From a virus: a stretch of 20,742 nucleotides of DNA. Below are positions 4,382 to 7,661 of this stretch, in pieces. The position numbers were made by a program, and so were the translations under genes. The notes below the pieces were generated by a model. That model was not told the DNA's origin, did no database searches, and was given only the letters and a program-made list of their open reading frames with translations. Numbering within the stretch: position 1 is the first letter of the stretch; every line of letters begins with the position of its first letter. The stretch is taken from positions 1 to 20,742 of the IMG/VR virus record IMGVR_UViG_3300046660_000493, one strand, 5' to 3'.

Positions 4382-5145
4382 TCAGAGCGTTAAGGGCCCC
4401 GGACCAGCGGGGCATGGGCCGTGTTGAGGCGAGCGACACCGGTCCGTCCAACATCAACCGCCTGGCCGACCTGGACGCGATGGCCACGACCATCCGCATC
4501 TGGGGCAGTTCGGTGATTCCCGGGAACCTCCAGACGCCGCAGTACTCGGACGCGGTGATCCGGGCAGCGCACCCGCGACTGCCCACCATGGAGGTGCGCC
4601 GGCGCGTCCTTCAGAAGGAGGTCCGCCAGCGGGCCTTCCTCAAGAGGACGTTCGACGAAGCCCTGAGCCACGTATGGGTGGTCATCTCGGAGCGCGCCAT
4701 CACGCAGGCCGTCCACCTGGACGGCAGCGTGCACGTACAGCAGCTCTTCCACCTGTCCCGCCTTGCGGCACACGCGAAGATCATCCTTCAGGTGCTTCCC
4801 GAGGGCTTCACTCCAGGACTGGCGGATTCATTCAGCCTGTACACCCTGGACGAGGAACACCGCGTTGGCTACGTTGAGACGATCATGGGCTCGTGGTACT
4901 CCACGCGCTCGGAGGACGTGGCCAAGCTCCACTCGACCTTCAGTGACATCGGGGGCGTGGCCATGTCCCAGACAGCCACGCGGCTATTCATCCGAGAGGT
5001 GCTGAACACATGGCGATCAGCAAACCCCGTGTTGCCCGACAGTATCGAGGAGAGCCGTTCCTCTTCTCCTCGTACTCCAGCGGTGGAGACGAGTGCATCG
5101 GAGTCGCAGGACTCCCCCCGCGCAGCGCACCGGACGGAGCCATAG
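4360..5145 (+). CDS. DUF5753 protein without the usual HTH domain
   Basis: This 261-residue protein matches the C-terminal sensory domain (DUF5753) of Streptomyces XRE-family regulators. The signature stretches are IPGNLQTPQY at 53-62, a Glu/Arg-rich helix at 78-100, LQVLP at 143-147 and YVET at 171-174; the domain ends near residue 216. The usual N-terminal helix-turn-helix of about 70 residues is replaced by some 40 unrelated residues, so DNA binding by this chain alone is unlikely. The last 45 residues are Ser/Pro/Glu-rich and overlap the DUF397 gene. In the host, DUF5753 regulators of the WhiJ type act with a DUF397 partner; that pairing is preserved here. The start at 4360 is chosen as the first in-frame ATG after AGGAGAGG, at a rather long 11-base spacing. 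Confidence 0.85.
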   Translation: METAEQLIRALRAPDQRGMGRVEASDTGPSNINRLADLDAMATTIRIWGSSVIPGNLQTPQYSDAVIRAAHPRLPTMEVRRRVLQKEVRQRAFLKRTFDEALSHVWVVISERAITQAVHLDGSVHVQQLFHLSRLAAHAKIILQVLPEGFTPGLADSFSLYTLDEEHRVGYVETIMGSWYSTRSEDVAKLHSTFSDIGGVAMSQTATRLFIREVLNTWRSANPVLPDSIEESRSSSPRTPAVETSASESQDSPRAAHRTEP

Positions 5146-5237
5146 CGGTACTGGACTCCAAGCGCCAGCACGGTCCCATCCTGGAGGTCACAGAAGGCGC
5201 CTGGAGCGCCTTTGTGCGCTCCGTCAAGGCTCTCTGA
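5010..5237 (+). CDS. DUF397 protein
   Basis: The 75-residue product has the DUF397 signature: FSSYSSGGDECIGVA at 19-33, the strand LDSKRQHGP at 48-56 and the ending AWSAFVRSV at 64-72. Such proteins are abundant in Streptomyces, usually beside XRE-DUF5753 regulators, and some pairs affect development or have been proposed as antagonistic (toxin/antitoxin-like) partners. The ATG at 5010 is preceded by GAGAGG at 4994-4999. It lies 136 bases inside the DUF5753 gene in another frame, so the two share sequence. A terminator follows 13 bases after the stop. The first 15 residues could be extra if initiation occurs later. Confidence 0.85.
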   Translation: MAISKPRVARQYRGEPFLFSSYSSGGDECIGVAGLPPRSAPDGAIAVLDSKRQHGPILEVTEGAWSAFVRSVKAL

Positions 5238-5280: not shown

Positions 5281-5371
5281 GTCATGCCCGCTCTTGTGGG
5301 GCGGATGAGCGTCGGCCCCCATGAGGCCGATCGGCCGGTCTGGCACCACCGGTGACGCGCAACGGTGCCTC

Positions 5372-5440
5372 CCCCTCGTAGCTCAGCCTGGCAGAGCGCC
5401 ACCGCGCAGGAGGTCGCAGGTTCAAATCCTGCCGAGGGGA
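5372..5440 (+). tRNA. tRNA-like RNA with a contracted anticodon arm
   Basis: A 7-bp acceptor stem (CCCCTCG with CGAGGGG) is followed by TA, a D-arm (GCTC/GAGC with loop AGCCTGGCA containing GG) and a perfect T-arm (GCAGG/CCTGC with loop TTCAAAT). The region between the D- and T-arms is five bases shorter than normal. It folds as CCACC/GGAGG (one A-A mismatch) with a five-base loop GCGCA and a two-base variable region. A seven-base loop reading is possible with a four-pair stem, but then T33 is absent. It is probably not a normal decoder, so this is either a decayed tRNA or a purposeful tRNA mimic. No CCA is encoded. Confidence 0.55.
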
Positions 5441-5498
5441 CGTTCGCGGCCGACGGGCCGCGGCTGGTGCACCGGGCGATATCCCGGTGTCGGATCGA

Positions 5499-5553
5499 CT
5501 GCGGGTGCAGCCCTCCCAGTGGGAGGTGGCGGGTTCGAGCCCCGCTCGGTCTA
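5499..5553 (+). ncRNA. Second tRNA-like structure, no clear acceptor stem
   Basis: A T-arm (GCGGG/CCCGC with loop TTCGAGC) is preceded by a two-base variable region and a perfect 5-bp stem CCTCC/GGAGG with a five-base loop CAGTG. A short D-arm-like hairpin (CTGC/GCAG) comes before that. The contracted anticodon arm and two-base variable region match the structure at 5372-5440 exactly. The 3' acceptor strand TCGGTCT has no complementary 5' strand upstream, so an intact tRNA is not present. Confidence 0.4.
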
Positions 5554-5557
5554 CGGA

Positions 5558-5621
5558 AGCGTGGCAGACGCTACGAGGAACGCCGTGCAGCCCCTTCGGG
5601 CAGCTGCGTCACCCCGAAGGG
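5558..5621 (+). terminator. Hairpins after the tRNA-like pair
   Basis: AGCGT/ACGCT (5558-5572) and a perfect 9-bp stem CCCTTCGGG/CCCGAAGGG (5592-5621, 12-base loop) follow the tRNA-like sequences. They may end or trim that transcript. The rest of 5622-5746 shows no gene; it contains GGGCCC twice in a row near 5640-5653. Confidence 0.45.
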
Positions 5622-5746
5622 ACGGCCAACACCTCGCGCGGGCCCTGGGCCCTCTAGCTTCCGGTGAGTTTCGCTCCAACTAAGTGAGATCTGTCAGGAG
5701 GAGCTGTAAGGGTCTGGCCAGCCTGAACCGAAACCAAATGGCCACC

Positions 5747-5774
5747 GCCCCGCCGGCCTGATGACCGGCGGGGC
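5747..5774 (+). terminator. Strong hairpin before gene 5805
   Basis: GCCCCGCCGG (5747-5756) and CCGGCGGGGC (5765-5774) form a perfect 10-bp stem with loop CCTGATGA, the loop also seen at 2174-2182. Its 3' arm can instead pair with GGAGCCC at 5794-5800 beside the ribosome binding site of the next gene. Two mutually exclusive folds are therefore possible. Confidence 0.65.
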
Positions 5775-5804: not shown

Positions 5805-6707
5805 ATGACCTTGCCGCGCAAGCCCGAGCCGGAAGAGGAGCTCATTCCGGCCAACGATCCGCACTCGCTGCCGCGGAAGTCGGGGGTCTTCCCCGTCACG
5901 CCCGCGATGGCCAGTTCCTGGCTCTCGTACCGCAACCACCCGAAGAACCGCCCCCTCAGCAAGTCCGTCTCCGCCCGCTACCAGGCGGACATGGAGGCCG
6001 GCCGGTGGCGCCAGGGCACCCCCGAGGGCTTGATCTTCGATACGGACGGCTACGTGATCTCGGGCCAGCACCGCCTGAAGGCGCAGGCGAACGCCGGGGC
6101 CACGCTCGACTGGTGGATCTTCGTGGACGAGCCCCGCGAGATCTTCGAGCACGTGGACCAGGGCTTCCGCCGCACCGCGGCGCACCTGATCCGCGGCAAG
6201 TACGCCAGCCAGGTCGGCGCCGGAGCGCGCCACCTGGCAGCGCTCGCCTACGGCGATCGCTGGGGCATGCCGCACTTCAACGGCATCACCACCCCCGAAG
6301 TGCTGGCCACCCACCGCGAGTGGCCGGAGCTGACCTGGCACCTGACCGAGGTCATGGCCTGCCACTACGAAGCCGGGGTCGTAGGCCCCCCGCACCTGGC
6401 CGTGATCGCCCAGGCGGACCGCACGGAGCACCGGGACATGATCCCCTCCTGGCTAGAGGGCGTGCGTACGGGTTACGACCTGAGCAAGGGCGACCCGCGT
6501 GCTCACCTGCGGAACCGTTTCCGCAGCGGATTCGCCATGACGGGTCAGGGCAACAAGCGCGACTCGATGTATGCGCAGATCGTCAAGGCGTGGAACGCCT
6601 ACGTGACCGGCGAGTCCCTGACGGTCCTGCGGTTCATGGCCTCCGAGGAACTGCCCACGGTCGTGGGCTTCACCTTCAAGAACGACACCAGGGAGGACGC
6701 GGCGTGA
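5805..6707 (+). CDS. ParB/Srx-fold-like protein
   Basis: The 300-residue product has a Pro/Glu-rich leader (1-25), then an ordered segment with VTPAMASSWLSY (31-42), HPKNRPLSKSVSARYQADME (45-64), GLIFDTDGYVISGQHRLKA (75-93) and a helical remainder. The order 'match the constraints, then G-x-H-R' is the hallmark of ParB/sulfiredoxin-fold proteins, in which GxHR binds nucleotide. Similar stand-alone proteins occur in actinobacterial phages and islands with unknown function. No separate HTH typical of true ParB is obvious. The ATG at 5805 follows the purine-rich GAGGAGAGGAG. The stop overlaps the next gene as GTGA. A role in DNA binding or a nucleotide-dependent switch is inferred from fold only. 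Confidence 0.65.
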   Translation: MTLPRKPEPEEELIPANDPHSLPRKSGVFPVTPAMASSWLSYRNHPKNRPLSKSVSARYQADMEAGRWRQGTPEGLIFDTDGYVISGQHRLKAQANAGATLDWWIFVDEPREIFEHVDQGFRRTAAHLIRGKYASQVGAGARHLAALAYGDRWGMPHFNGITTPEVLATHREWPELTWHLTEVMACHYEAGVVGPPHLAVIAQADRTEHRDMIPSWLEGVRTGYDLSKGDPRAHLRNRFRSGFAMTGQGNKRDSMYAQIVKAWNAYVTGESLTVLRFMASEELPTVVGFTFKNDTREDAA

Positions 6708-6976: not shown

Positions 6977-7233
6977 CCATCCATCCCGGCACACCGGTAC
7001 TGGTGCGGGCCCCGAGAGGGCGGGGCCTGCCCAGCTACGCCATGGTGGTACGGACGCTGACCCCACGCATCGTCAGGGTGATCATCACGGCAGACAGCGG
7101 AGGGCGGCGCAAAGGCGCCGTTCTCGCCGTCCCACGGGCCACGCTCCAGCGGCGTGCCCGTGGTTGCCATCGCAGAGCGAAACCGCTGCGTCGCAGGTGG
7201 CGACAGTGGGCGCTTGAGTTTGGCAATTCCTGA
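6973..7233 (+). CDS. 86-residue basic beta-type protein, unknown
   Basis: The ATG overlaps the previous stop. Residues 5-55 contain Val/Ile/Arg strands with turns (TPVLVRAP, YAMVVRTL, RIVRVIIT, KGAVLAVP), suggesting a small beta-barrel such as an SH3- or KOW-like fold. The rest, after residue 56, is very Arg-rich. It may bind nucleic acid; no family is recognised. It ends the three-gene operon that begins at 5805. Confidence 0.6.
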   Translation: MTIHPGTPVLVRAPRGRGLPSYAMVVRTLTPRIVRVIITADSGGRRKGAVLAVPRATLQRRARGCHRRAKPLRRRWRQWALEFGNS

Positions 7234-7291: not shown

Positions 7292-7358
7292 CGGAGCAAG
7301 AGTCGGGCCTCTCGCGGTCACGTGAACTGCTGCCAAGCCACATCGACAAGGGGAAGAC

Positions 7359-7661
7359 ATGCCGCCAAGGAAAAGAGTCGACTTGCCGGAGTATGTGAGA
7401 GAAGTCGTCCTCCTGGACGTCGAGCGGTCGTATCGAAAGTCGCTCGAGTCCAACGAGGAAGCCAAGATCCGGATCTACCTGGCCACCGAGCAGGGCCTGA
7501 CGACGCGAGAGCTCGCCGATCAGCTCGACATCGGTCAGACCTCCGTCAGCAAGTACGCCCGAGAAGGGAAGGAGGCCTACGAGCTGCGTGACCAGAAGAA
7601 GCGAAGTCGACGCACTGGCGAAGGTCCTGATGGACCCTCAGAACGAACAGAGATCGGCTGA
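7359..7661 (+). CDS. HTH DNA-binding protein, first gene of the integrase operon
   Basis: The 100-residue product has a basic start, a Glu/Lys-rich helix and a clear helix-turn-helix LTTRELADQLDIGQTSVSKY (47-66). The first helix binds the backbone and IGQTSVSKYAREG forms the recognition helix. The tail is basic and low-complexity. The ATG at 7359 follows AGGGGAAG. Coming right after the only promoter-type gap in the region and at the head of the integrase operon, it is a candidate regulator of integration or lysogeny. The position supports this, but no repressor-type oligomer domain is visible. It overlaps the next gene by 74 bases. Confidence 0.7.
   Translation: MPPRKRVDLPEYVREVVLLDVERSYRKSLESNEEAKIRIYLATEQGLTTRELADQLDIGQTSVSKYAREGKEAYELRDQKKRSRRTGEGPDGPSERTEIG

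Follow-up and report, generated by a model that had tools for sequence, protein, structure and literature searches.

Why a phage should carry two adjacent tRNA-like elements whose decoding arm is too short for a normal anticodon loop is the question raised by a stretch of 20,742 bases from an IMG/VR virus record (the window). The window encodes a large serine recombinase (Resolvase/Zn-ribbon), a WhiB-like protein, a PD-(D/E)XK exonuclease, a DnaB-like helicase and a primase. Because two Streptomyces genomes carry the same RNA, the natural reading of its source is a temperate-type actinobacterial (Streptomyces) phage.

Direct reading of the sequence confirmed two tandem tRNA-likes with intact T arms and a contracted anticodon arm (Table 1), as had been proposed from the letters alone (the sequence-only reading). 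In the first element, the acceptor CCCCTCG/CGAGGGG pairs at 7/7 positions, T8 and A9 precede a D stem GCTC/GAGC, and the T arm is GCAGG-TTCAAAT-CCTGC, with A73 as discriminator. The acceptor of the second, GGATCGA/TCGGTCT, also pairs 7/7, wobbles included; its D hairpin is CTGC-GGGT-GCAG and its T arm GCGGG-TTCGAGC-CCCGC, then A. Both therefore have the arms of a decoding tRNA (7-bp acceptor, 5-bp T stem, TTCRANN loop; 7/7 and 5/5 pairs). Where a normal tRNA has 22-23 nt separating D arm from T stem, these elements have 18, reading G-CCACC-GCGCA-GGAGG-TC in the first element, where the stem carries an A.A mismatch, and C-CCTCC-CAGTG-GGAGG-TG in the second, where it is perfect; the earlier count of 17 omitted base 26, and the contraction itself stands. 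The 7-nt loop with U33 on a 5-bp stem that marks a decoding tRNA is absent from both (loops GCGCA and CAGTG), CCA is not encoded after either, and it is proposed that neither decodes.

In a covariance-model check of the kind advised by the sequence-only reading, the Rfam tRNA model recovers the first element (48.8 bits, E 6.9e-8, anticodon arm shortened) and does not report the second in a scan of the window. ARAGORN reports neither element there. The first folds into a tRNA-like shape (z -2.6). Folded alone, the second is not outstanding (z -1.1), and its support is comparative: its arms are shared by L003-2 and L025, two elements from the related loci described below. Between the tRNA-likes lie two linker hairpins, and the first helix, CGCGGCC/GGCCGCG, becomes CACGGCC/GGCCGTG in L025.

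Table 1. Features at and around the RNA locus (positions in the window)
Feature	Position	Strand	Support
DUF397 protein, upstream neighbour, outside the RNA	5010..5237	+	Pfam
Pseudoknot-capable element CCGGT-CT-GGCACC-ACCGG-TGACGCGCAAC-GGTGCC, just 5' of tRNA-like 1	5335..5369	+	conserved
tRNA-like 1: intact acceptor, D arm and T arm; contracted anticodon arm 5398-5415	5372..5440	+	Rfam tRNA, relatives
Linker region with two hairpins, loops GACG and CGATAT	5444..5491	+	fold z -3.0
tRNA-like 2: intact acceptor and T arm, minimal D hairpin, contracted anticodon arm, discriminator A5553	5492..5553	+	relatives L003-2, L025
Structured RNA core, ~190 nt: P1, P2, P3, pseudoknot or kissing hairpins, P4, P5, P6	5554..5745	+	alignment, covariation
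GC-rich terminator-like hairpin GCCCCGCCGG/CCGGCGGGGC, CTTCCC tail	5747..5774	+	differently sequenced hairpin there in most relatives
phrog_5931 protein, downstream neighbour, outside the RNA	5805..6707	+	resembles ParB-like/DNA-binding annotated proteins of other phages

Six related viral loci were found through the downstream protein and more through a DNA word in the core, a search that also returned S. himalayensis PSKA28 and Streptomyces sp. t39. True members of the family are L002, L003 (identical to L004 and L005), L006, L007, L008, L011, L014, L016, L025 and L026, with L010 belonging in part. L003, L004 and L005 are separate metagenome assemblies, so that an assembly error is unlikely. 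The corresponding position holds one or two tRNA-likes in 10 related loci, 8 of them viral and 2 in Streptomyces genomes. The one that abuts P1, the first helix of the core, is always present, being of the tRNA1, tRNA2 or tRNA-Leu type or consisting of acceptor and T arm only. In L002 (4625-4765) a different insert separates tRNA-like 1 from the core and ends in a minihelix, GCCCTGGAG..CTCCAGGGC-A, which occupies the place of tRNA-like 2. On L014, a 47-kb phage contig of this group, ARAGORN finds a tRNA-Pyl (CTA) at 7358-7444 (minus strand), a possible amber suppressor. Among 50,697 phage records and 72,556 plasmids, similar DNA was confined to pieces of tRNA-Pro and tRNA-Leu and to chance matches. 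In a core search of Streptomyces and its order only the two genomes already known were convincing; matches of 24-31 bits there resembled chance matches in other sequence. A link to phiC31-type phages was rejected: the phiC31 tRNA-Thr gene shares D arm, T arm and acceptor with the window elements, but its anticodon loop is normal and no core of this type follows it.

Across 14 tRNA-likes of the family, T-stem positions are paired in 70/70 cases with nine different T stems, and acceptor positions in 93/97 with 12 different acceptors; strand shuffles among the 14 never attain this pairing. The segment between D arm and T arm, where measurable, ranges from 12 to 36 nt and may have any sequence. 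Contracted anticodon hairpins occur in the window, L003-2, L006, L016 and L025 and enlarged ones in L003-1 and L014, while L002 has a segment of near-normal length that lacks U33 and L007 retains a remnant only. The D arm is lost or remodelled in L007, L011 and L026, and of the identity bases only the discriminator A is fixed. Such a record indicates that the acceptor and T arms are under selection and that the decoding part is not. This agrees with the sequence-only reading that the pair had not decayed independently and may be mimics put to another use. Its argument from a departure common to both neighbours applies to the window, where both segments measure 18 nt, and does not extend to relatives with shorter, longer or missing anticodon arms. 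Full-length tRNAs at this place in relatives, which it had listed as evidence against itself, are represented by L008, a complete tRNA-Leu(CAA)-like element and the sole family member with a normal anticodon loop; the arms are nonetheless conserved throughout.

The sequence-only reading overlooked the larger conserved RNA of which the tRNA-like pair is the 5' portion. In all 11 known core sequences, which form the covariation sample, P1 (5554-5560 with 5657-5663) starts one base past the discriminator A. It shows compensatory changes such as CGGAAGC/GCTTCCG, CCGGACC/GGTCCGG and CGGAACC/GGTTCCG, with one bulge in L007, L008 and L011. P2, P3, P4 and P6 also covary in the core alignment and P5 is invariant, the P2/P3 region being different in L007 and L011. 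Across the full structure, 94.9% of cells are paired, and 14 pairs are changed on both sides, as against 4.8 in shuffles and 0-3 in slid structures. A pseudoknot of GCAGC/GCTGC with CCCTTCGGG/CCCGAAGGG and two kissing UUCG/CGAA hairpins fit the alignment about equally well. The word GGTGAG(T/C)TTCGCTCCAAC is nearly invariant by construction, having served as the search word, and AGGAGC(C/T)GTA(A/G)GGGTC, which played no part in the search, is nearly invariant as well. The folding energy of the whole element is not exceptional (z -1.0), and the structural case therefore relies on covariation. A cmscan of the window and its relatives matched the core to no Rfam 15 family. The tRNA-like pair is thus judged real and selected, and it belongs to a phage RNA family not described before.

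The core is followed by a terminator-like hairpin in most members and the next gene differs between loci, and for these reasons we read positions ~5335-5774 as a stand-alone noncoding RNA of ~430 nt with tRNA-like 5' modules. The U tract of the hairpin in the window is too short for the terminator consensus scan. A cis-regulatory leader of the phrog_5931 gene was considered and rejected, since the following gene is not constant: a gene of this type differs or is absent downstream in some relatives, and was not found directly after L008, L014, L016, L025 and L026. A sigma-70 consensus scan found no promoter, a negative that carries little weight for hosts of this group. The element at 5335..5369 is near-invariant in L002, L004, L006, L016 and L011, its pseudoknot being drawn by inspection and not from covariation; as it is single-copy in the window, the idea of a repeated operator was discarded. 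The same five loci also conserve an intergenic stretch at ~7150-7210 of the window (minus-strand reading TGTCGCCACCTGCGACGC..GGTTTCGCTCTGCGATGG), loosely similar to the element at 5340 and perhaps a promoter or operator.

For kilobases on either flank, identity between the window and L002 is 97-98%, but it drops to 45-78% across most of the tRNA-likes and part of the core, much of 5340-5700. This local fall in identity between flanks of ~98% suggests either cassette exchange of the element or diversifying selection upon it. L016 shows the reverse pattern, with a core ~89% identical and flanks ~71%.

RNase P and RNase Z recognise the acceptor/T minihelix of a tRNA and not its anticodon arm. We consider it quite possible, if a little short of probable, that the tRNA-likes are 5' modules kept for end-processing by the host, and that cleavage frees the core of the ~430-nt RNA. 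After transcription of the whole RNA, host RNase P would cut the 5' ends of the tRNA-likes and RNase Z their 3' ends, the minihelix being the sole part that either enzyme recognises. A cut immediately 3' of the discriminator A would set the core free, its 5' end held in P1, and this core would then have a role of its own. The acceptor and T arms would be kept because the two enzymes read just that minihelix, and the anticodon arm, on which neither depends, could therefore drift or be swapped freely. The P1 boundary (A5553/C5554) coincides with the expected RNase Z site. Substrates for tRNA-processing enzymes had already been named by the sequence-only reading; they now provide the leading mechanism, with cleavage predicted from sequence. 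There is precedent in that RNase P processes tRNA-like parts of non-tRNA RNAs, phage regulatory RNAs included, and that the tRNA-like parts of MALAT1 and MEN-beta are cut by RNase P with RNase Z (PMC4919922). Nevertheless, the abutment of P1 on the acceptor stem could equally reflect coaxial stacking in a single uncleaved structure, and the local divergence between the window and L002 suggests more than a passive cleavage tag would need. The altered D arms of L007, L011 and L026, the differing P2/P3 region of L007 and L011 and a core sample of 11 also count against it.

Such an uncleaved arrangement is the basis of a GOLLD-like alternative, in which the tRNA-likes remain covalently attached structural domains of an RNA with a conserved 3' core and a variable 5' part. 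GOLLD itself, from phages and prophages, is conserved in its 3' region and variable in its 5' region, with tRNAs sometimes in the linker (PMC12286853), and P1 abutting the acceptor stem and a core rich in pseudoknots fit this picture. Rfam, however, gives no GOLLD or ROOL match in the window or its relatives, and at ~430 nt the RNA is well below the >800 nt of that class; we regard the alternative as unlikely, while taking it seriously. Rather unlikely too, in our view, is a decoy or mimic for a putative host factor that binds the acceptor/T arm, with variability arising from an arms race; EF-Tu, the CCA-adding enzyme, MenT-type acceptor-stem toxins and users of aminoacyl-tRNA are possible candidates. 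The strictly kept minihelix, the recurrence across phages of tRNA-likes without an anticodon and the hypervariability local to near-identical phages would all suit a decoy. The acceptor sequence itself is highly variable (12 in 14 elements), however, with CCA not encoded and nothing but the discriminator A fixed. The decoy for host anticodon nucleases suggested by the sequence-only reading does not fit, because the loop that it requires is lost or unconserved.

The remaining explanations have less in their favour. P4 CI RNA is a phage substrate of RNase P. So is C4 of P1 (PMC4919922), and an antisense immunity RNA of this kind, with the variable arm as its specificity region, would account for a segment that is hypervariable in near-identical phages. 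Yet no Rfam C4 match was found in the window or its relatives, and the variable segments overall show no stronger pairing to the locus they come from (2.5 kb on either side) than to others; an antisense target for them was rejected on these pairing energies, which show no general own-locus preference, and the explanation appears improbable. Decay of tRNA pseudogenes, to which the missing decoding loop and the negative ARAGORN result might point, should erode the arms as it does the loop, but the arms covary and are almost perfectly paired in all relatives, which makes it very hard to credit. Equally remote is a working, unusual tRNA (e.g. one reading four-base codons or causing frameshifts) or an attachment site. 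L008 resembles a complete tRNA; in most members, however, the loop is 3-5 nt long or the anticodon arm is missing. Moreover, the recombinase of the window is a large serine enzyme, and both acceptor strands are present, unlike in a tRNA-half attP.

Comparison with known systems gives partial likenesses only. GOLLD and ROOL are likewise structured, pseudoknotted and located near tRNAs in phages and prophages, but the window RNA is much smaller, its tRNA parts lack anticodon loops and they abut the first core helix exactly. mascRNA (MALAT1) and menRNA also place a non-decoding tRNA shape beside another RNA and undergo the two cleavages proposed here; these, however, are human nuclear lncRNAs with a 3' tRNA-like, whereas the phage element lies 5' of the core. 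P1/P7 C4 and P4 CI share the phage setting, a regulatory nature and RNase P maturation (here proposed), but no antisense target was found for the window elements, which are near-complete tRNAs. tmRNA likewise has pseudoknots and a tRNA-like domain that lacks an anticodon; in the window, by contrast, D and T arms are adjacent (18 nt apart), an mRNA-like insert is absent and ARAGORN finds no tmRNA. In the papers searched, no account of anticodon-less phage tRNA-likes was found.

Contracted tRNA-likes are also present outside this family. A scan for D-arm to T-arm spacing 1-8 nt short found them in at least 120 viral contigs, and in 80 contigs inspected 53 elements combine a perfect T stem with 6-7 paired acceptor positions. 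Among the matches listed, 26/51 distinct anticodon segments have a stem of at least 5 bp, against ~9 expected from shuffling, and a common design is 5 bp with a 4-nt loop. The contracted pattern occurs in 2/448 bacterial genomes (0/149 from the phylum of Streptomyces, 2/299 from the phylum of a Pseudomonas); full-length spacing gave 117 matches in 13 bacterial genomes, ~9 per genome. When the D arm is fixed to a single form, 10 contracted and at least 120 full-length elements are found in the viral collection, a contracted share of at most ~8%. Fragments, and genuine tRNAs with unusual loops, may be among the contracted viral elements.

Many unrelated phages (L104-L183) have intact acceptor and T arms with a 3-5-nt loop replacing the anticodon loop, e.g. 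CTATA-GAAA-TATAG in L117 and CCTGA-TAGG-TCAGG in L123. Three related phage tRNA-likes, in L132 (3112, minus-strand coordinates), L157 (8502, plus strand) and L166 (12159, minus-strand coordinates), have a clear intrinsic terminator directly 3' and a conserved scaffold, varying chiefly in a loop flanked by TCC/GGA (AAATCA, CTCAGT, CCACAA). ARAGORN counts 20 and 13 genes in the large tRNA arrays of L161 and L164, each of which includes a contracted tRNA-like with a conserved scaffold and differing anticodon segments (ACTTGGTCAAGAGGTC, ACTTGGAAGAAGGGGTC).

It is conceivable, although we incline slightly against it, that phages widely carry selected anticodon-free tRNA-likes with a 3-5-nt hairpin loop and a non-translational role, which the window family fuses to an undescribed structured RNA. 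Gene finders that require a near-normal loop would then miss or mislabel such recurring phage RNAs. If the proposed processing is true, phages use the acceptor/T half of a tRNA as a detachable handle, independently of decoding, and a phage RNA family would gain a testable start and end. In addition, the local hypervariability between near-identical phages offers a route to function through cassette swaps.
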